A stretch of DNA of 64,000 nt from Thiorhodovibrio winogradskyi (GTDB taxonomy: Bacteria > Pseudomonadota > Gammaproteobacteria > Chromatiales > Chromatiaceae): the NCBI RefSeq assembly GCF_036208045.1, contig NZ_CP121472.1:4599531-4663530 (forward strand). The letters are read 5' to 3'. This document shows, in pieces, positions 1 through 13,932 of this stretch (position 1 is its first letter; every line of letters begins with the position of its first letter). The position numbers and the translations under genes are program-made. Below the pieces are notes generated by a model. The model worked only from the letters and a program-made list of their open reading frames with translations. It ran no database searches and was not told the origin of the DNA.

Positions 1-379
1 ATTGCGCTTGGCCATGCGTCTTTTTCCCCACCGGTATTCACGACAGGATCTGCGTGAAGCACCATCCCGCATTTTAGACGCCTTGGGCATGGCGGAACAC
101 ATGAAGGCACGCCCTGATGAAATCTCTACAGGTCAAAAGCAGCGCGTAGCCATTGCACGTGCCCTGATCAATCGTCCTAACACCATTTTGGCTGATGAGC
201 CAACGGCATCACTCGACAGAGACACGGCACAGATCGTGATTGATCTTCTGCGGGAAAGGGCAAAAAAAGAGAACGCCCTGGTGCTGATTGTCAGCCACGA
301 TCAACGGCTGTTCACAACTGCTGATCGTGTAATAAGAATGGTGGATGGAAGCATCCTGGCTCAGGACAGCGATACATGA
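1..379 (+). CDS. ABC transporter ATP-binding protein, C-terminal part (cut by window start)
   Basis: This is the C-terminal half of an ABC ATPase that would energise a lipid or lipoprotein exporter. The visible parts are the signature motif STGQKQRVAIARAL, a Walker B segment ending in [11 protein letters not shown], and the H-loop histidine in VLIVSHD. The Walker A loop lies upstream of the window, so the reading frame enters from the left and the first in-window codons are not a start. The family resemblance is to LolD/MacB/DevA ATPases (established family knowledge). It is followed on the same strand by an acyltransferase and a sphingoid-base reductase, which suggests (inference) that the transporter moves a lipid made by those enzymes. 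Confidence 0.85.
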   Translation, partial: LRLAMRLFPHRYSRQDLREAPSRILDALGMAEHMKARPDEISTGQKQRVAIARALINRPNTILADEPTASLDRDTAQIVIDLLRERAKKENALVLIVSHDQRLFTTADRVIRMVDGSILAQDSDT

Positions 380-474
380 GTCCTTGGTCTATCGCTTAAT
401 CATGTTTATTATCCACACTTTGCCCCCTACTGTGGTCATTTACCAATCATCTTCCCACCGAGTTCTCCAAGATC

Positions 475-1194
475 ATGATTTTAAAGAACGGCAAGGACCG
501 AACATACCACTTTTTCCGTTGGGTTTTTGACAGCCGACGCCGAACGGACGCGCTCTACCATGCCGTTTATCTGCCAGTGCGGTTGCTATTCGGCCTAATA
601 GTTAGAGGCGCCGAAAACCTTCCATCGACAGGCCCGGCAATCTTTGCTTTCAATCATGGATCGCATTATGACGGTTTCTTCATGATGTTTGCCTTATACC
701 GGTTTCGACCATATCCACGCGCTCTACCGGTTTATTGGCATGGCATGTTGAGCATGCCGGTGATCAGCAGTTTTCTGCGCGCCCACGGTGGATTTTCAAT
801 TTCGCACGACGCATCACAAGCGCAAACGCGAACAGGGGAAGTCATTGCCATGCGCAACGCCCTGGAGAGTGGCATCCCGATCTTAATGGCGCCTGAGGGG
901 AAACGAAATAGTCGGCTGGGAAGGTTTCAACAAGGGGCGGCGATGCTTTCACTTAACACCGGCTGTCCGATCGTTCCCTGCTCATTGCGCGGTGTTAACA
1001 AGCTTTATGATCAACTGCCATTCCCAAATCGCATCTGCGGACGGGTTGAAGTCTGTTTTCATCCGCCTATCATCCCCAGCGGACCCGTAACCGAACAGCC
1101 TGACATGCTCACCGTGAAATCCCTGACCCAATCGCTTTGGAAAGTGATCGCTTCGGGAATAGATTATCCCGTGGCGACTGAACTGATGGATTAA
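475..1194 (+). CDS. 1-acyl-glycerol-3-phosphate acyltransferase family protein (PlsC-like)
   Basis: The 239-residue protein carries the acyltransferase catalytic block NHGSHYD at about residues 60-66 (NHxxxxD) and a substrate-binding block EGKRN at 141-145, followed by a glycine-rich stretch (GRFQQGAAML). These are hallmarks of the PlsC/LPLAT family, which transfers acyl chains from acyl-CoA or acyl-ACP to a hydroxyl group at the membrane. The usual substrate is lysophosphatidic acid. Its position between an ABC ATPase and a ketosphinganine-reductase-like gene leaves open an acyltransfer step on a sphingoid or other unusual lipid (inference). The ATG at 475 is 9 codons upstream of the conserved region. 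Confidence 0.85.
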   Translation: MILKNGKDRTYHFFRWVFDSRRRTDALYHAVYLPVRLLFGLIVRGAENLPSTGPAIFAFNHGSHYDGFFMMFALYRFRPYPRALPVYWHGMLSMPVISSFLRAHGGFSISHDASQAQTRTGEVIAMRNALESGIPILMAPEGKRNSRLGRFQQGAAMLSLNTGCPIVPCSLRGVNKLYDQLPFPNRICGRVEVCFHPPIIPSGPVTEQPDMLTVKSLTQSLWKVIASGIDYPVATELMD

Positions 1195-1203
1195 ATCCTG
1201 GCT

Positions 1204-2115
1204 GTGACTGCCCCTCACGCATTCATCACTGGTGGCTCCAGTGGCATCGGACTTGCTGTCGCCAAGCGGTTGGCACTCAAAGGCTGGCGCTTATCCCTTC
1301 TGGCGAGGGATGAGCACAAGCTCGAGCAGGCAAAAAACGCCCTAGCACTCTTGCGATATCGCCGCGGGCAGTGCAGCTCAATTAGCGAGCAAATAGGCGC
1401 AGAGCCGTCGGTCCCAATTGATATATTAACACTCAGCGCCGACCTGACCGACCCCGCACAAACGGTCAATGCGGCGCGGCATGCTATTGCCACCATGGGT
1501 GCACCCCAACTACTGGTTAACTGTGCTGGGATGGCCCGTCCTGGTCATTTTATCGAAATGCCCCTCGACATCCATCGACGCACAATGGATGTTAACTACT
1601 TTGGCACACTCACAATGATTCGGGCGCTCGCACCCGCCATGATTGACATGGGTGGGGGAAAAATTGTTTTAATATCCTCAGGCGCCGGACTTGTTGGCAT
1701 TTTTGGGTACTCAGCCTACAGTCCAACAAAGTTCGCGGTACGCGGACTTGCGGAAGTGCTGCGCGCGGAACTCAAACCCTTGGGCATCAGGGTGTTTGTT
1801 GTCTATCCACCCGATACTGACACACCCCAACTCGCTGAGGAAAACAGGTACAAGCCCCCCGAGACGCGCGCCATCACCGGTTCGGCGACAACACGCAGTG
1901 CCGAGATGGTCGCTGCAGCCATCCTGTCAGGCATCAACAAAAACCGTTTCCTGATCGCCCCAGGATGGGAAATGGCGCTACTCGCCCGACTACACAGTCT
2001 TCTTGGCCCGGTCATTCATCGTTATGTCGATTCAGTTATCCGCCACAAGCGCGCGCTGCAAGCCAAACAAACCACGTTATTAGGTATCTTCAATGTCCGG
2101 CGGCGTAGGCCTTGA
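1204..2115 (+). CDS. 3-ketodihydrosphingosine reductase-like short-chain dehydrogenase
   Basis: The 303-residue SDR protein starts at a GTG nine bases after the acyltransferase stop, so the two are probably cotranscribed. It has the NADP-binding motif TGGSSGIG (9-16), NCAG (106-109), and the catalytic Ser near 158, Tyr172 and Lys176. The diagnostic block YPPDTDTP at 201-208, followed by AEENR.KP.ETR, is characteristic of eukaryotic 3-ketodihydrosphingosine reductases (KDSR/TSC10 family). That enzyme reduces 3-ketosphinganine to sphinganine with NADPH. The reaction is inferred from the family; no serine palmitoyltransferase lies inside the window. A C-terminal amphipathic or hydrophobic stretch (LLARLHSLLGPVIHRYV) could be membrane-associated, as in KDSR. 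A generic SDR function is the alternative. Confidence 0.82.
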   Translation: MTAPHAFITGGSSGIGLAVAKRLALKGWRLSLLARDEHKLEQAKNALALLRYRRGQCSSISEQIGAEPSVPIDILTLSADLTDPAQTVNAARHAIATMGAPQLLVNCAGMARPGHFIEMPLDIHRRTMDVNYFGTLTMIRALAPAMIDMGGGKIVLISSGAGLVGIFGYSAYSPTKFAVRGLAEVLRAELKPLGIRVFVVYPPDTDTPQLAEENRYKPPETRAITGSATTRSAEMVAAAILSGINKNRFLIAPGWEMALLARLHSLLGPVIHRYVDSVIRHKRALQAKQTTLLGIFNVRRRRP

Positions 2116-2271
2116 TCATTACCCAGGCCGTCAAATCCGCCGCTTAAGTAGGCACGTCATCCTAGCCTATCAAACCAAAGCTGGAAGCCCTGATTAGGTT
2201 ACGTGTGAATTCCTTTGGCCCTGTTTATGATCAAGATCGGCAGGGTAATGCTTTAAAGTGTTGTGAGCCAT
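2116..2271. other. convergent intergenic spacer
   Basis: This spacer separates the plus-strand lipid genes from the minus-strand kinase gene. I see no gene in it and no strong T-tailed hairpin. Confidence 0.5.
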
Positions 2272-3783
2272 TCAACCACAAATAACCCTCGCCAATCCTC
2301 TTTTGACCTCCATTTGGATGGGCGCATAGTCGACCCGCTCTCCGTCCACCGCTAAAATACCCCGACTGGTTAAGGGTTCCAAGCGAAAACAACTTACTTT
2401 ATAATACTCGACTCTCGGTAAAAAAACATGCTCCCCGTGAGCAGATTTCAAAAATGCCAACAGTAAATTTAATTTAGAAATTCCTCTCCGCACCAAGATG
2501 ACATCCAGATTGCCATCCGCCAAATGAGCGAAGGGTGCCGCGAGTATATCGTGAGACGCGTACGGAATATTCATTGCCCAGAATAACACAAAGTCATCTT
2601 CAATTAAATGCCATTCGTTCTGGGACGATTGAATAAGCTTTCGCGATGATGGGTTTTCCGACCTATTTTCATAACCTCCAGGTTGCAAATAAGATGAGCG
2701 TTTAGCGAATCGTTCACATGTTCCAGCCACGGTTAATTCATCTATTACCGGGATATAGGAAAACCTCGCGGCATAATGCCGCAATTGCCAAATTCGCAGC
2801 AAGGCATAAATATCCATTCGCAAAGACCCTAAATTTCTCAAGCGTTCTGATTCAATATCTACGTCGCTAATAATTGCCCACCCAAGGGACAAGAAACTAT
2901 AATAAGACTGTTCATTTTGCTGGACCAGCGCAAGATCCAGAGGTCGTTGTTTTCCTTTGGCAATCAAAAAGGCGGCACTCACCGCATCGTAGGGTTCACC
3001 GGCTATTTCCAACAGGGTTTTAGCCAAACCAGATCCGGTTCCAGCGGGAATGACTCCGATTGGCTTGAGAATCGCTTGTTGCCAGTCGGTCCGGCTCATT
3101 AGACCATTAATGGCCTCGTGCATACTGCCATCTCCTCCGACCAGGACAATTTCATCGATTGCCGATAAATCAATTTGACTCAATGTGAGTTGAATCTGGC
3201 CGGCATGACCGGTTTCCGTCACGGAATACTCCAGATCACTATGATCAAGGATCGGCCGGATGCGAGCGAAAATTTTGCGGCCTTGCTTTTGCCCGCTCAT
3301 GGGATTAATAAAGATCTTTAAACGACGCCTACTCGGAGCACTTTGGTATTCTCTAGATTTACCCTTCAGGATGTTTTGAATAGCCTTAAGCCAGCGCGAT
3401 CGCGCTTTCTCATCTGGGCAGGAAAAGTAATAGGTTTTCAGCAACCTGTGCCGTTCTTTTCTAAAACCAAACCATCGCCAACGCGTCACCAAGGGACAAG
3501 TATGAATCCGAAAACAAGACTGGGACACCGCGACCCTTTCAGTTGTTTCAACACCACGGCCATTCTCATGGGGACCCGGTTTAAAGGTCGGTGGACATAC
3601 CGAGTTATCGGCGATAACTCCGATGACCGAAGCGAAATCGACCGGTATTATTTTTGCGGATTCTGGCAAAACAATACAATCTTCGGTTAAATAGCCAAGC
3701 GCATAGCCCTCCGTTGGTTCTGATAAATACCTTGAGAATTCGACCATGCGAATCATTTCCGAAAATTGTGGGTGATCCTTCAT
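2272..3783 (-). CDS. eukaryote-like sphingosine kinase / diacylglycerol kinase-family protein
   Basis: The 503-residue lipid kinase has the DAGK-catalytic motifs in order: IFINPMSG near 157-164, the nucleotide-binding GGDG at 216-219, and PIGVIPAGTGSGLAK at 241-255. It then has features that separate eukaryotic sphingosine kinases from bacterial YegS/DgkB enzymes: PLDLALV at 281-287, a SFLSLGWAIISDVDIESE segment at about 296-313, an R..GS.R..IYAL run, and the C-terminal VDGERV. The N-terminal 140 residues end in a stretch (YYFSCPDEKARSRWLKAIQ) resembling the end of a PH domain, as in plant-type kinases. It should phosphorylate a sphingoid base or ceramide with ATP at the membrane. The adjacent ketosphinganine-reductase-like gene supports this. 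The exact lipid substrate is unproven. Confidence 0.82.
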   Translation of the reverse strand: MKDHPQFSEMIRMVEFSRYLSEPTEGYALGYLTEDCIVLPESAKIIPVDFASVIGVIADNSVCPPTFKPGPHENGRGVETTERVAVSQSCFRIHTCPLVTRWRWFGFRKERHRLLKTYYFSCPDEKARSRWLKAIQNILKGKSREYQSAPSRRRLKIFINPMSGQKQGRKIFARIRPILDHSDLEYSVTETGHAGQIQLTLSQIDLSAIDEIVLVGGDGSMHEAINGLMSRTDWQQAILKPIGVIPAGTGSGLAKTLLEIAGEPYDAVSAAFLIAKGKQRPLDLALVQQNEQSYYSFLSLGWAIISDVDIESERLRNLGSLRMDIYALLRIWQLRHYAARFSYIPVIDELTVAGTCERFAKRSSYLQPGGYENRSENPSSRKLIQSSQNEWHLIEDDFVLFWAMNIPYASHDILAAPFAHLADGNLDVILVRRGISKLNLLLAFLKSAHGEHVFLPRVEYYKVSCFRLEPLTSRGILAVDGERVDYAPIQMEVKRGLARVICG

Positions 3784-3992
3784 GGTTTTTTTTCAACAAT
3801 CCAAACAATTTAGGACAGCATTGTGAAAGCTCCCAGGTATAGCGTGGAATAAGCGATAACGGAAAAACCCCATCGACCTGCCCCTACAATTTATTAAATG
3901 CCCAGACTATACGCAAATCCAAATATTCTGAAATAAGCCACTCTAGATTATAAGCCGACCAATTCACATCAGAGAACATCCAGCGCAAGCCA
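3784..3992. promoter_or_regulatory. divergent intergenic region between lipid-kinase and CarS-like genes
   Basis: About 200 AT-rich bases lie between two divergent genes, so promoters for both must lie here or nearby. I cannot assign -35/-10 boxes with confidence. Confidence 0.4.
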
Positions 3993-4559
3993 ATGCCACC
4001 GCAAATATCACAACTCTTGCCGCAACTTTTCCAGGATACCTCGAATATTTTTTGGTTAATGTGTCCATTATTAATGGCTGGCATTCTCGAAGCTCTTCTT
4101 TGGAAAACCACCCTTTTTGAACCCTTAAACATTCCCATCAACCAGTTCTTATTTGGCACAAACAAAAGATGGCGGGGGTTGGTCAGCCTACCGCTAACTC
4201 ATGCGGCAAGTGTTTTTTTATTCCAACATATGGAGCCAATGTTAATCAAAGACCCACCACAAAACTGGGTTCTTTTATCATCTTTTAACTGGCTAGAATA
4301 TGGATTGTTAGTTGGATTTGTGTTCAACTTATCGGAACTACCGAATTCTTACTTTAAACGACGATTAAAAATTCCCTCTGGTGACGAAAAAAGTATCCCA
4401 TTCTTCCTTGCGGACAACATGGACTCGACCTATGGTACTTTATTATTATGGTATTTTTACTTTCAATTGCCATTGCATCTCATTTTAACGGGCTTAATCG
4501 TCACCCCCTTATTATTTATGACCGGAACTTGGATTAGGAAAAAATTGCGCTTGAAATGA
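3993..4559 (+). CDS. CDP-archaeol synthase-like integral membrane protein (CarS/DUF46 family)
   Basis: The 188-residue protein has about five hydrophobic segments. It carries the family blocks NKRWRG at 57-62, LPNSYFKRRLKIPSG at 116-130 and DNMDS at 141-145, which match the pattern of CarS (KTWRG, SFxKRRxGxxxG, DQxDx). CarS is a CTP-dependent cytidylyltransferase in the CDP-alcohol lipid pathway, best known for archaeal CDP-archaeol. Bacterial homologues exist, with mostly unknown substrates. Its divergent arrangement with a sphingosine-kinase-like gene suggests it activates a phosphorylated lipid with CTP (inference). The sequence is AT-rich compared with the main part of the window. Confidence 0.7.
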   Translation: MPPQISQLLPQLFQDTSNIFWLMCPLLMAGILEALLWKTTLFEPLNIPINQFLFGTNKRWRGLVSLPLTHAASVFLFQHMEPMLIKDPPQNWVLLSSFNWLEYGLLVGFVFNLSELPNSYFKRRLKIPSGDEKSIPFFLADNMDSTYGTLLLWYFYFQLPLHLILTGLIVTPLLFMTGTWIRKKLRLK

Positions 4560-4772: not shown

Positions 4773-6260
4773 CTACTGATTATAAGTACGCCGGTAATAT
4801 CCACGATAGGGCACATATTTTTCCTTGATCAACAGCTTCAATCGTGCAAGGCGGGAACCTGTCGCCAGACTGTCAAGTTGGCGCGTAACATAATATGGCA
4901 GGTTATTCTCGATATCGGCCACATAGTCACAGGGTGGCAGCGTAATCGACTGGTAACGACGCGCGGCAACGCATATTCGCTCTGGGCTATCAACCAGAAT
5001 CAGACCGTAAAATGATGCGTCTTGCACGAAAATCAGGTGTTCAGGCGGACTGAGGAGAACACGTTCGCCTTCTGGCATCGCTGTAAGATCGGTGGAGATA
5101 TCACCCAACCGGTCAAAAATAGTAAGATTAGCCGGTAGATCTAGAGAATTGACAACAGTGTAAATGGTAAGCCGAATGGAAAATAGTAGAACCCAGGTCG
5201 CGATACAAGTCGCGAACAATATGTCTCGTCCTATCCCGGCCGTCGCCAATTGATTCTGCACAAGTACGAGGAGCAGACCAAGAAGCACGAATAGAGGGCT
5301 TGCTGATTGCGCATACACATATTGCCCGGAGGCTAGGTACAAGACGAGAAGAACCAGGAAAACATAACTGGTGCATACTAATATCTGGATGCGTGAGTTC
5401 AGTTCCAAACGTGATAGTAGGATACCAAGCAAGGTCAGCGGAAGAAGCGCGACGAAACCCACAACAAAGAAAAGCGAGGCGGATTGATTTCCCTCCCCAA
5501 TCCGCTGTAACAGTGAGCTGAAGGAGAAAATGAAGCGAAACTGATCTAGCGTCACCGGCGACGCGAACAAATAAAAGACGATAGTCAGACTAAAACTGCT
5601 AACAAACACGGTCATGCGGCGAAGGTTAAAATCAATCCAAGGGTACCTCGTGTCAGTCGGGAGCAAGAACAGACCCGCAAGAACCAGAAATCTTGGGCTG
5701 GCAAGGACTGCTAGCGAGAAGAGCGCTCCGGACAGACCGAGACGAAGTGTCGATTGACTTGCGTTGTTACGAGTTGTAATCCAATAGTAAAAGCTGCCGA
5801 CGCAAAAGGCTGTGCTGAGGGTTTCCGGACGTGGAATAAACAGATGAGCCGCCACGCCATCGGCAAGAATGAAAAACATTGTTCCCAACATGCCCGGCGG
5901 AATATTTTCATACTGCGCACTGTTGTTACCATGGACTTCACAATGCCCCTTGGCATGATGTCGGCCGATATGATAGAAGCCAATGACCACGCACAATCCG
6001 CAAAACAATACAACGGCATTACCAAAAACTAAAAAAAATGACTCGCTCCCACCAAGGCGGAAATAGAGCCCAAGAACATCCCAAAGCAGCGGGGTGTGAT
6101 GCTCGAAGAAATCCTCGAAAGGAATCAATTCCCCCTTCTCAATGAGCCAAGCAACGTGCAGGTGCCAGATCCCATCGTACGATGGATCCTGTAAACTGAT
6201 GATCAGTAGCCAGGTGACAACCAATGCCCAATAAAGCCTTGCTAGATTTTTATTAGACAT
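4773..6260 (-). CDS. multispanning membrane protein, GT39/ArnT-like putative glycosyltransferase
   Basis: The 495-residue protein has roughly ten hydrophobic segments and a soluble C-terminal tail of about 120 residues. Near the N terminus, an acidic loop between the first two membrane segments (YDGIWHLHVAWLIEKGE, then EDFFEHHTPLL) resembles the catalytic first periplasmic loop of polyprenyl-phosphate-dependent glycosyltransferases (PMT/ArnT class). It is the last gene of a minus-strand set with a GtrA-like flippase and a UGM-like flavoenzyme, a common arrangement in polysaccharide decoration loci. The sugar donor and acceptor are unknown. I rate the fold as likely and the enzyme activity as probable. 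Confidence 0.6.
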   Translation of the reverse strand: MSNKNLARLYWALVVTWLLIISLQDPSYDGIWHLHVAWLIEKGELIPFEDFFEHHTPLLWDVLGLYFRLGGSESFFLVFGNAVVLFCGLCVVIGFYHIGRHHAKGHCEVHGNNSAQYENIPPGMLGTMFFILADGVAAHLFIPRPETLSTAFCVGSFYYWITTRNNASQSTLRLGLSGALFSLAVLASPRFLVLAGLFLLPTDTRYPWIDFNLRRMTVFVSSFSLTIVFYLFASPVTLDQFRFIFSFSSLLQRIGEGNQSASLFFVVGFVALLPLTLLGILLSRLELNSRIQILVCTSYVFLVLLVLYLASGQYVYAQSASPLFVLLGLLLVLVQNQLATAGIGRDILFATCIATWVLLFSIRLTIYTVVNSLDLPANLTIFDRLGDISTDLTAMPEGERVLLSPPEHLIFVQDASFYGLILVDSPERICVAARRYQSITLPPCDYVADIENNLPYYVTRQLDSLATGSRLARLKLLIKEKYVPYRGYYRRTYNQ

Positions 6261-6296: not shown

Positions 6297-7907
6297 TCAC
6301 TGTGGTCTGACGGACTCATGGTATCGCTGCTCGGTGTTAACTGACCAAATGTTTGATTTCTCTTTTATTCCGGCCAGAATATTGTCAACTGCGGTCATAG
6401 CCGCCAGCATCGAATGGTCCTGATTATTGTATCTGTGCATACCATTGCGGCCTATCAGAAACAAATTCTCAATTGGGTCAAGGTAATCACGGATCTCAGA
6501 AAAATTGTCAAAGGTGCCGAAATAAGCAGGATAAGCCTTGGGTACACGGATTACAGTATAATCAAGAAGATCATTTTCATCCGCCATCCCTAAGGTGCTT
6601 AGTTCAGAGATTGCAAGCTTGGCCATCTCATCGTCCGGCAACCGCCAAATCCTATCGTCCTCGTTGGCGAAATATTCCAAGCCGAGCCACAAATGATTCC
6701 GGTCCGCGACCAAATATGGACTCCAATTGTTGAAGATTTGTATCCGCCCGACCTTGACCTCTGGCTCCTGGATATAAATCCAGTTATCACGAATCCATTC
6801 CCCTTCTGTGTTTACCAAGCGGTTAGTCGACGCTTTCACAGGCCGAAGCAACAAGCCTACCGTAATGAAATCACGGTAAAGAAGCCCATTCGCAATTGTT
6901 TTTATCTGTTCAGGTGGTGGGGGATGAATTTGCTCAATGAGTTGTTTTACCGGCAAAGTCGAGATAAACCAATCCCCAGTCATTATGCGCCTGGTTCCGG
7001 TTGGCCCAATAACCGTGATGGATGAAATTTTACCAGAGGGAATTTGGTGCAGCTCCGCGACGGAGGTACGCAAATGAATCTCTCCGCCCATTTTTTCGAC
7101 AAGTTCAGCGACTCGTTCCCAAAGTTGGCCCGGGCCAAGTTTGGGATACAGAAATCGCTCGATCAGGCTGGTTTCGATTTCTCTTCCCGGCTGTGTCTTG
7201 CTCTTAGGCATCAGACTGCGGACAGCGTGACTGAGGAGATTGAATATCGAAACACCCTTAATTCTTTGAGCCCCCCAATCTGGAGAAATCTGGCGGCACG
7301 AAACACCCCAGACTTTCTCAGTGTAATCGCGAAAAAAACTCTCATACAATGGCCAACCAAAACGATTGACCAAAAAATCCTCAAGCGTTCGCTCCGGCAT
7401 GATCGGGAAAATTTTTTTTTCAATATAACCAAAAAGTATGGTGACCGCGGTGGTGAACCCAAATTGCCGCAGCGCCTTGAATGATGGACGAAGCGGATAA
7501 TCAAATAGATGACCACGAAACAGAATGCGGGATAACCGGGATCGAACCAGCATGACCAAGTCGGTTGTTTCCGGATCTGGCCCCACGGGATCTATTTGCA
7601 ATGCCCCATGAGAGACTTGACTGCGATCCGCTTGATTCAATTTCTCAAGAGAGGAAACCCCCTGTATTGGGAGTATACCCAGCCACCAGTCAAGCACGCG
7701 CTGAGATTTGGAAAAAAATCGATGTCCGCCAATATCAATACGATTTCCCTTATAAACCACAGTGCGTGATATACCCCCAAGGCATTCACCAGCCTCAAAA
7801 AGCACAGGCTTGATGTTGGATCGGCTCGCCAACTCATACGCCGCAGTCAGGCCGGCGGGACCACCGCCGATAATGATGGCGATTTGTTGTGACCCGGTAT
7901 TAGACAT
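6297..7907 (-). CDS. FAD/NAD(P)-dependent oxidoreductase, UDP-galactopyranose-mutase/amine-oxidase-like
   Basis: The 536-residue flavoprotein begins with a Rossmann dinucleotide motif [12 protein letters not shown] (about 14-25). It continues with an acidic ribose-binding residue in LFEAGE and the GGISRT.....IDIGGHRFF pattern typical of UDP-galactopyranose mutase-like and protoporphyrinogen-oxidase-like proteins. The C terminus keeps the FAD-closing segment [18 protein letters not shown]. Family members of this size occur beside GtrA and glycosyltransferase genes. It likely acts on a nucleotide or lipid-linked sugar in the cytoplasm, but the substrate is not predictable from sequence. The start ATG is 62 bases after the stop of the upstream GtrA gene, which supports one operon. 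Confidence 0.72.
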
Positions 7908-7969: not shown

Positions 7970-8482
7970 TCAATCATCAATACCAGTCGCTACTGGGGGC
8001 GCAATTACTTTCTGTCGGAAGCTAATCATCTTGTGCGCCGGATAGGAGTAAAGAGAAACCACCGCAACCGCGGCGACGTGACTCATCAACTCAACATTGT
8101 TTCTAAGTTCCCGCGGGACTGAAAACTCAGCAAAAACCGACAACAAATAGTTACGAAACAAAGTAGCAATAAGCGCGGTAACCCCTAAACCGATCATGGA
8201 GACGAAAATAAATGCGTGTATTTCATGAGCCAAAGAGCGGTTGCTTCTACTAAAAGTGTATATTCTGTTTAAATAGAAGCTGGCAAGCATTCCGATTAAA
8301 AAGGCAAAGGCTATCGATACAGGGTAGCGCCAATCTTCCCGAAACCCAAATGCGGCATAAAACACATACCCCGCTACGATATTTAGTCCAGCCGCAATGC
8401 CCGAACACTGGATGAATCGGCTAAATTCATGGACAAAGATCGCACCTCGCGCCTTGATCATCTGCTGCGTCGAGACTTTCAT
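7970..8482 (-). CDS. GtrA-like family membrane protein
   Basis: The 170-residue protein has four hydrophobic segments and the GtrA-family pattern: RFIQCSGIAAGLN near the N terminus, then a central FYLNRIYTFS motif that matches the family's N(R/K)xxTF. GtrA proteins are small membrane proteins thought to help move undecaprenyl-linked sugars across the inner membrane. It is the first gene of the minus-strand operon with the UGM-like flavoenzyme and the GT39-like protein, which fits a glycan-modification pathway. Confidence 0.8.
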   Translation of the reverse strand: MKVSTQQMIKARGAIFVHEFSRFIQCSGIAAGLNIVAGYVFYAAFGFREDWRYPVSIAFAFLIGMLASFYLNRIYTFSRSNRSLAHEIHAFIFVSMIGLGVTALIATLFRNYLLSVFAEFSVPRELRNNVELMSHVAAVAVVSLYSYPAHKMISFRQKVIAPPVATGIDD

Positions 8483-12599: not shown

Positions 12600-12752
12600 G
12601 ATTCGTCGCCCGATTCTGGCGCAGAGTCCCGAGTCAGGGTGAGCCGTCGCCTCGTCTTCGGCGGACGCGCGCCCTTGCCCTGAGCGCCCCAGAAAAATGA
12701 TCGACTGAATGATCGACCCATCGACCAAACAAGAATGATTGAGGAGTCCACC

Positions 12753-13932
12753 ATGTTGAAAAAACTGAATAGCCCAAGCGCCCCCGACCTGCCGCGCTTC
12801 AGTCGCCTGTGCGCCTGGCTGTTTGGCGGCCTTATCCTGCTCTTCACCATCCAAGCCCTGGCCGTGCGGCCCGCCGGTCAGCCCGGTGTTGATTGGGGCG
12901 ACCCCCGGGGTCAGGAATGTATCGACTGCCACATGACCAAGAATCCCGGTTTGTATTGGGGGTGGAATCACAGCCAGCACGGCCAGAACGGGGTTACTTA
13001 TCTGGATTGCCATGAGGCGCAGAGAGACGACATCGACGCCTGGCGCCACGAGGATACCTTTGTCTCCATCGTGGTCACGCCCAAGGATTGCGCCAAGCGT
13101 CATCAAAAAGAGTTCGAGGAAATGGACGGCTCCCATCACGCCAAAGCTGGGCAGATTCTCTGCTCGCTCGACAACCTGCTCGGCTAGGTCATCGGCGGCC
13201 CGGCGGCGGTGAATGCCGGCTGCAAGCAATGCCATGGCGGGGAGTTGGAATTCATCACCGAGGGCAAACGCAAGGACAAGGGGCGGCCCAAACCGGGCAA
13301 TTGGCCCAATACCGGCATCGGGCGCATCAATCCCGACGGCAGCCTGGGCGCCTGCACCGCCTGTCATGGGCGTCATCGGTTCAGCAAGGCGCAGGCGCGC
13401 ACGCCGGATACCTGCGGCAAATGCCATGTCGACCCGGATCATCCTGGAAGAGATCTGCGTCGCCTGCCACGAAAGAAGCGTGATTGATGGCCACTACGCG
13501 CAGTTCGACAATGTGGTCGATCTCTACAACGACAAGTTCGCCAAGCCGATCGCGGCGGTCATGTCGGACTTGAAGGACAAGGGCTACATCACGCCAGCGC
13601 CATTTGATGAAAAGATCGAGTGGACCTGGTGGGAGATCTGGCACCACGAGGGTCGGCGCGCCCGCCATGGCGCCTCCATGAGCGGTCCCGACTACACCTG
13701 GTGGCACGGCATGTACGAAGTCGCCCAGCACACCTACTTCAAGTGGATTCCCGAGCTGAAGGACGTGGTGAGCAAAAAAGACGGCAATGACGCCTATGCG
13801 ACCGCGCTGCTTGAGGAGCACTTCAAGCCCATTGAAGGCCACGATTGGTACTTCAACGGCATGAGCAAGGATCAGCTCGAAACCGTGCGCAAGGGCTTCG
13901 AGGCCAGGTACGGCGAGGGGTCGTTGAAATAG
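12753..13932 (+). pseudogene. hydroxylamine-oxidoreductase-like multihaem cytochrome c, decayed
   Basis: The ATG at 12753 has a GAGGAG ribosome-binding site. An N-terminal membrane anchor or signal is followed by haem motifs CIDCH, YLDCH, CAKRH, CKQCH, CTACH, CGKCH and CVACH, and a C-terminal domain (EWTWWEIWHHEGRRARHG...GPDYTWWHGMYEVAQHTY) typical of the HAO octahaem family. Two motifs have lost a cysteine (YLDCH, CAKRH). An in-frame TAG occurs at 13185-13187 (...DNLLG, stop, VIGGP...), and the frame shifts near 13440 with apparent loss of intervening sequence. About 390 codons remain. HAO-family enzymes interconvert hydroxylamine, NO and nitrite in the periplasm. The neighbouring hcp and FNR boxes fit reactive-nitrogen metabolism. 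Confidence 0.78.

Follow-up and report, generated by a model that had tools for sequence, protein, structure and literature searches.

The window, a stretch of 64,000 nucleotides from Thiorhodovibrio winogradskyi (NZ_CP121472.1, positions 4,599,531 to 4,663,530), is part of a single 5.48-Mb contig and carries at its start part of a candidate gene cluster for sphingoid lipids. It begins inside a tight row of eight genes, all on the + strand and spaced by −4 to 95 bp, which on these grounds appear to form an operon. The first gene of the operon lies 12.6 kb upstream of the window and encodes an alpha-oxoamine synthase (AOS) of the serine palmitoyltransferase (SPT) family (genome 4586890–4588164). 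It is followed by a type I polyketide synthase (PKS) of one module and 2532 aa (genome 4588227–4595825), a DevB-like adaptor and two DevC-like permeases, the five genes together occupying genome 4586890–4599182. The sixth gene, for a DevA-like ABC exporter ATPase, starts at genome 4599199, so that its 3′ part alone is inside the window (window 1–379). A PlsC-type acyltransferase gene (475–1194, +; 239 aa; PF01553, 72.6 bits) stands 95 bp after it and 9 bp before the last gene, which encodes a homologue of 3-ketodihydrosphingosine reductase (KDSR; 1204–2115, +; 303 aa). Convergent to the KDSR gene is that of a sphingosine kinase (SphK)-type lipid kinase of 503 aa (2272–3783, −). Divergent from the latter is the gene of a CDP-archaeol-synthase-like (CarS-like) membrane protein of 188 aa (3993–4559, +), the 209-bp stretch between the two (3784–3992) being room for a possible shared control region. 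The five proteins that the initial annotation had named within 4.6 kb, from the ATPase to the CarS-like protein, were all found in place, the ATPase as a 3′ part in the window. The upstream extension that it had proposed, in search of a serine palmitoyltransferase and an ABC permease, yielded the SPT-family AOS and the two DevC-like permeases. It also yielded the PKS, which lies outside the DNA that had been annotated and makes the pathway PKS-type.

Domain analysis showed that the PKS contains KS (DTACSS, EAHGTGT, KTNLGH), AT (GHSVG), DH, ER, KR and ACP domains with their motifs present. A methyltransferase-like stretch scored under the Pfam cut-off and showed no S-adenosylmethionine motif by the pattern used. 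No thioesterase appeared in the Pfam table of the PKS, and release of the chain by the adjoining AOS would fit this. An AOS next to a reducing type I PKS of one module is the arrangement of clusters of the Sga, Rkp and Wcb kind. The AOS misses the cut-offs of three NCBIfam SPT equivalogs (221, 276 and 316 bits against 670, 500 and 640). In a tree of 39 rows, built without loci L082–L084 and L088 and without PfSgaB, it fell within a clade of 33 with support of 100/100. This clade includes the AOS of Pseudomonas, Paraburkholderia, Shinella and Sinorhizobium meliloti plasmids and excludes the SPT-type proteins of Sphingobacterium and Parabacteroides, one KBL/AONS and three further AOS-family proteins. 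Within it the AOS of the cluster is sister (95/92), on a long branch, to 17 proteobacterial AOS.

At E ≤ 1e-75 the AOS was found in 14 of 210 genomes of its own order, the own genome counted. A whole or partial PKS adjoins it in 12 of the 13 others, and in the 13th (G198, a 5.4-kb contig) the AOS is adjoined by DevB-like, two DevC-like and DevA-like genes. On the fetched stretches of these 13 genomes there was no SphK or CarS match, and SDR matches reached at most 32% identity. According to Pfam, a sulfatase-fold gene and an SDR gene precede the PKS in G209, ABC-2 transport genes are neighbours in G019, and the single neighbour gene scanned in G187 is of the alanine-dehydrogenase type.

A PDB search with the putative reductase gave TSC10 as the best match (8jat, 100.7 bits; runner-up, 81.2 bits). 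In a tree of 20 rows, the protein grouped with three cyanobacterial SDRs, two rhizobial SDRs and TSC10 at 99/97, apart from 13 other SDRs. The tree was built without two of the 12 SDR-scan loci (L066 and L068) and without the Pseudomonas plasmid, whose SDR gave no match at 1e-8. The branch of TSC10 is long (3.8), so its exact place in the clade is unsure. The KDSR identity proposed by the initial annotation was thus borne out by PDB search and tree, and the tree ruled out a generic SDR. The cyanobacterial members of the clade are 49–51% identical to the protein of the cluster. The block PPDTDTP..EN..KP.ET is present in the latter, and TSC10 itself is without the exact PPDTDTP. The block VVYPPDTDTPQLAEEN differs by one letter from that of the cyanobacterium G836, and VVYPPDTDTPQLAEEN.KP.ET is near-identical in the cyanobacterial KDSRs that adjoin an AOS. 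The SDR of the Paraburkholderia PKS–AOS cluster fell among the 13 other SDRs, outside the KDSR clade, which disfavours one common SDR for all PKS–AOS clusters; given this placement, SgaC of Pseudomonas fluorescens and the KDSR described here may be different.

The kinase is a DAGK_cat protein, and the PDB search matched it to human SPHK1 with 160 bits, AGK with 75, DgkB with 42 and YegS with 17. A tree of 17 rows, in which human SPHK1 is the sole eukaryotic row, placed it with three cyanobacterial kinases and SPHK1 at 100/98; the four bacterial kinases of this clade group at 91/91, which is below the starred level of the tool. The tree leaves out five (L054–L058) of the 14 loci of the contig scan described below and keeps four of 19 plasmid kinases. 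Foldseek, run with a model of mean pLDDT 72.6, returned SphK1 at E 2e-36, DgkB at 9e-19 and YegS at 3e-15. PDB scores, tree and fold rule out a YegS/DgkB identity, and the eukaryote-like sphingosine kinase of the initial annotation held up. D218 and D309 align with Asp81 and Asp178 of SPHK1 (numbering via the Asp81 offset), the second of which we take to be a sphingosine-binding residue. The DVD.ESE block around Asp178 is kept in this kinase and is missing in Agrobacterium and Enterococcus lipid kinases. Asp81 is a catalytic residue of SPHK1 (PMC9045371), and a dihydrosphingosine kinase is known from a bacterium, Porphyromonas gingivalis (PMC9045371). The N-terminal domain of about 145 residues was modelled as seven strands followed by a helix, a PH-like order (pLDDT 54); its best Foldseek match had E 0.11, and PH domains were among the non-significant matches. 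This is suggestive only, and the domain may be a PH domain.

No close homologue of the kinase was found on plasmids, where 19 distant records were retrieved, none of them covering 80%. A contig scan with two short peptide patterns from two sequences found 14 loci with a kinase relative; it missed G677 and G836 and was therefore not exhaustive. One of these loci, L045 from an uncultured Pleurocapsa, encodes a kinase 47% identical to that of the window (the others 22–37%), and L045 and G607 are one genome. In Parabacteroides (L145:4669–7026), an SPT-like gene is divergent from a DAGK-family kinase gene, possibly of the dhSphK1 type; this kinase has a long branch and does not group with the SPHK1 clade.

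The CarS-like protein matched PF01864 with 32.6 bits, over the cut-off of 22, and is 61–64% identical to three cyanobacterial homologues in the search and 58–61% in the alignment. The sequences ELPNS..KRRL.IP.GDE and D..DSTYG are common to all four proteins. The protein resembles archaeal CarS in Pfam family and in the block NS..KR...G...D..DS, which is presumably important in CarS; it differs in scoring 34 of the 148 bits set by the archaeal NCBIfam equivalog. No homologue was found on plasmids at E ≤ 1e-5.

The best NCBIfam matches of the exporter genes were DevA, DevB and DevC. All were below the curated cut-offs (DevA, TIGR02982, 266.9 of 295.8 bits; DevB, 116.9 of 129; the two DevC, 192 and 176 of 290.35), and in these scores and in its two DevC-like genes the set differs from the heterocyst glycolipid exporter DevBCA. 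Besides adjoining this AOS in G198, DevBCA-like genes are found near it in cyanobacteria, no more than 5 kb away in G844 and G842 and up to about 10 kb away in G685 and G629; a DevA match above 40% identity is missing near the AOS in 10 of 14 cyanobacterial contexts. The link between exporter and AOS is therefore recurrent but not general.

SphK showed a narrow distribution. It was found in the own genome alone both among the 210 genomes of the order (E ≤ 1e-15) and among 398 genomes drawn from the own phylum (E ≤ 1e-20). In a sample of 292 genomes from the cyanobacterial phylum to which G607 belongs, three (G607, G677 and G836) carry it. CarS was likewise found in the own genome alone among the 210, and in the same three of the 292, together with a weak fourth match in G657 (36%, E 8e-13), the context of which was left out. 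The AOS, at E ≤ 1e-95, occurs in 15 of the 292, all three SphK- and CarS-bearing genomes among them. Under independence, the naive chance of equal SphK and CarS triples is 2.4e-7, a value that is too low because G607 and G677 are kin.

The cyanobacterial AOS contexts were examined in 14 of the 15 genomes (G609 left out). In G836, genes for FAAL, an acyl-CoA dehydrogenase, ACP, AOS and KDSR on the + strand stand together with genes for CarS, an unmatched protein and MBOAT on the − strand, so that AOS, KDSR and CarS are neighbours. Elsewhere in this genome, 86 bp after SphK, lies the gene for a CDP-alcohol phosphatidyltransferase (L078:10638–11309), which scores best against the model of archaetidylinositol phosphate synthase (121.6 of 180 bits). 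Among 59 chosen genomes, this transferase was found in G836, with two weak matches in G639 and G183, and none of the three PF01066 proteins of the T. winogradskyi genome is similar to it at 1e-3. G677 and G607 each encode a fusion of AOS and ACP. A KDSR of 49–51% identity adjoins the AOS in three of the 14 contexts (G836, G708 and G685). The last two, G708 and G685, have an MGDG-synthase-like glycosyltransferase gene after that of the KDSR and gave no SphK or CarS match, suggesting alternative head-group routes, with a sugar in some genomes and phosphate plus CTP in others. The cyanobacterial loci L119:9496–15151 and L121:11807–17153 show in a row an FAAL–ACP–AOS fusion (checked by Pfam in L121 only), a KDSR and an MGDG-synthase-like glycosyltransferase, likely a cyanobacterial route to glyco-sphingolipids.

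Gene order, family placement, conserved residues and co-occurrence were observed directly, and from them we propose an acquired operon that makes and exports a long-chain sphingoid lipid, to which SphK and CarS would add a phospho head group by way of a CDP-lipid. This overall proposal, drawn from sequence comparison, is modestly favoured. The single-module reducing PKS would build an alkyl chain bound to its own ACP. The AOS would then couple the chain to an amino acid, most probably serine, in a decarboxylative condensation that sets it free, and KDSR would reduce the 3-keto group. Judged by close families, this chemistry of PKS, AOS and KDSR is well supported and very probable. The PlsC-type enzyme would add an acyl group. 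Phosphorylation of the sphingoid base, or of its acylated form, by SphK is quite probable by comparison with related kinases, and the DevBCA-like exporter, by its relatives, likely moves the lipid out. The CarS-like enzyme would use CTP to turn the sphingoid phosphate into a CDP-lipid, and a CDP-alcohol phosphotransferase, perhaps the housekeeping PgsA or PssA, would install the phospho head group. The CTP step and the head group are the least supported parts, and the CTP step is put forward tentatively, the balance being slightly against it. Bacterial CDP-diacylglycerol and phosphatidylglycerophosphate synthases can handle CDP-archaeol (PMC7852524), so that the last step here could fall to a housekeeping PgsA or PssA. 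In its most specific form, the proposal is that SphK makes sphingoid-1-phosphate, that an archaea-type CarS converts this to CDP-sphingoid or CDP-ceramide, and that a CDP-alcohol phosphotransferase exchanges CMP for the head group, a route common to the host, with a PKS-made chain, and a few cyanobacteria, with an ACP-bound chain. This form falls somewhat short of an even chance. The phosphorylated or CDP-activated sphingoid lipid suggested by the initial annotation remains the best reading of the product.

Several observations weigh against the CDP-lipid proposal. SphK and CarS stand outside the exporter operon, and no precedent for CDP-ceramide or CDP-sphingoid was found in the open-licence literature. 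The CarS-like protein stays far under the cut-off of the archaeal equivalog, and no PDB relative of it was found by sequence. If only the 15 genomes with the AOS are considered, equal triples would arise with a chance of 1/455 (0.002), and G607 and G677 are near kin (CarS 80%, kinase 63% identical), so that independent events are few. SphK and CarS sit on separate contigs in the three cyanobacterial drafts, and their tie is thus unlike the transfer of one block. At E ≤ 1e-5, neither the T. winogradskyi genome nor G607 or G677 showed a counterpart of the CDP-alcohol transferase of G836. Among the cyanobacteria with SphK and CarS, KDSR was seen in G836 only, the SDRs of G607 reaching at most about 33% identity and G677 being covered on its fetched stretches only. 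The stretches fetched around the AOS of G836, G607 and G677 gave no adjoining PKS match, and the chain is therefore probably made otherwise in these genomes.

A simpler explanation is a plain SgaABC-type cluster from which free, perhaps acylated, sphinganine is exported, the sphinganine-1-phosphate formed by SphK serving turnover or signalling only and the CarS-like protein serving another lipid. It is in line with the sphinganines of P. fluorescens MYb115, which need sgaAB and for whose reduction the KDSR homologue is proposed (PMC12134224), with the dhSphK1 of P. gingivalis, which makes dihydrosphingosine-1-phosphate and is modelled as diverting the base from complex lipids (PMC9045371), and with an exporter operon that lacks SphK and CarS. 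Yet SphK and CarS co-occur, together with this AOS, in two phyla at the thresholds used, and CarS adjoins KDSR in G836; we consider this explanation rather unlikely.

The kinase might instead be a ceramide kinase, with a PH domain before the kinase domain as in human CERK, in which case the PlsC-type enzyme would make the second chain and the CarS-like protein would act on a two-chain ceramide-1-phosphate. Archaeal CarS acts on two-chain lipids, which speaks for this idea, as do the strands followed by a helix in the N-terminal models and the PH domains among the non-significant Foldseek matches. Cyanobacterial enzymes homologous to human CERK, and the PH domain of CERK, are mentioned in PMC10331486. 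However, neither the kinase of the window nor the three cyanobacterial kinases have the CxxxCxxC motif, which PMC10331486 describes as absolutely conserved in the eukaryotic CERK. The best Foldseek match of the N-terminal domain, at E 0.11, also tells against a ceramide kinase (CERK itself was outside the comparison), and this identity is doubtful. A chance location, with a CarS-like protein that produces CDP-archaeol or CDP-diacylglycerol, would suit PF01864, which is the CDP-archaeol synthase family, but is improbable in view of the low score against the archaeal equivalog (34 of 148 bits) and a distribution that matches those of SphK and AOS.

The core of AOS, PKS and KDSR is of the known Sga kind, with a layout similar to the rkp-1 and wcb capsule genes. 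In P. fluorescens MYb115, SgaABC, reported in 2025, consists of the PKS SgaA, the AOS SgaB and the SDR SgaC (PMC12134224). For SgaB, the AOS that accompanies this PKS, formation of 3-ketosphinganines (SPT activity) with a preference for serine has been demonstrated, and the products of the cluster are C24–C28 sphinganines and presumed phosphoglycerol sphingolipids; to the knowledge of its authors, this was the first example of PKS-made bacterial sphingolipids (PMC12134224). Like the cluster described here, SgaABC pairs an AOS with an adjoining iterative type I PKS of one module and includes a KDSR homologue. Compared by description only, the two differ in that SphK, CarS and DevBCA find no mention in the accessible text on SgaABC and in the gene order, which is AOS–PKS in T. 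winogradskyi. Consequently, the view of the initial annotation that no bacterial pathway with this gene set had been described holds for the whole set, but not for PKS- and AOS-dependent sphinganine synthesis with a KDSR homologue (PMC12134224) or for a bacterial dihydrosphingosine kinase (PMC9045371). The rkp-1 genes (rkpA, rkpGHIJ) of sinorhizobia and the wcb genes of Burkholderia capsules likewise combine a PKS/FAS-like gene with genes for a lipophilic molecule (PMC3557214; PMC3908369). Unlike the cluster described here, they lie among or near capsule genes; around the cluster none were recognized by eye in the open reading frames, no dedicated search having been made. On S. meliloti pSymB and a Shinella plasmid, the genes for PKS, AOS and an SDR of the KDSR clade are consecutive, the S. 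meliloti PKS being a 7.5-kb gene annotated as an SDR.

PKS–AOS pairs were also seen among or near capsule genes at L133 (Pseudomonas plasmid), L134 (Paraburkholderia plasmid), L135 (Shinella), L136 (S. meliloti pSymB) and L030. Several of these loci carry an LTA-synthase-like or sulfatase-fold gene, and L133 also has Kdo genes. Group 2 capsules have a lyso-phosphatidylglycerol anchor. A phosphoglycerol sphinganine would resemble this anchor, and by this analogy the capsule-linked PKS–AOS clusters may make capsule anchors.

The dhSphK1 of P. gingivalis (PMC9045371) is, by description, alike in being a bacterial sphingoid-base kinase modelled on SPHK1. In Caulobacter, the ceramide kinase CpgB belongs to a separate kinase class (PMC10331486), and CpgD is a CTP:phosphoglycerate cytidylyltransferase (PMC12275187). 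Phosphorylated ceramide and a CTP step in the synthesis of sphingolipid head groups would be shared features, whereas CTP activates the head group (glycerate) in Caulobacter and would activate the lipid in T. winogradskyi if the CDP-lipid proposal holds. In the open-licence literature, no title was found that connects SphK with cyanobacteria or with gene transfer in bacteria, and no paper describing a set of exporter, acyltransferase and kinase/CTP genes was found, exporter not being among the search terms. What is new relative to the known core is the SphK/CarS pair, its shared distribution, the exporter and the acyltransferase, and the cluster hints at an undescribed bacterial way of attaching sphingolipid head groups. 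If the CDP step is real, sphingoid lipids could enter the head-group chemistry of glycerophospholipids, and eukaryotic, archaeal and bacterial lipid enzymes would be joined in one route. That T. winogradskyi and some cyanobacteria possess a kinase of the SPHK1 type is relevant to how the eukaryotic enzyme arose.

The initial annotation had taken the AT-rich composition as a sign of transfer. The lower G+C is real, with 60% in the PKS, 57% in the AOS, 53–55% in the exporter genes, 46% in SphK and 39% in CarS, against a window background of 59.5–67.1% (2-kb blocks, 10001 to 60000). SphK and CarS are absent from both same-genus genomes, as is the AOS at E ≤ 1e-75 (best matches 36–38% identical). 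The cluster was probably acquired by transfer; judging by the G+C gradient, its AT-rich SphK/CarS portion may differ in history from the PKS portion. The AT-rich stretch continues with three genes on the − strand, which encode a protein with no Pfam match (4773–6260), an FAD-dependent oxidoreductase (6297–7907; NF005546, 754.6 bits) and a GtrA-like protein (7970–8482). They are at most candidate members of the lipid system and may be a surface-sugar set. Further into the window, at 12735–13932, cytochrome-c-like stretches were seen by eye across overlapping frames, as in a multiheme cytochrome gene split by a frame change.

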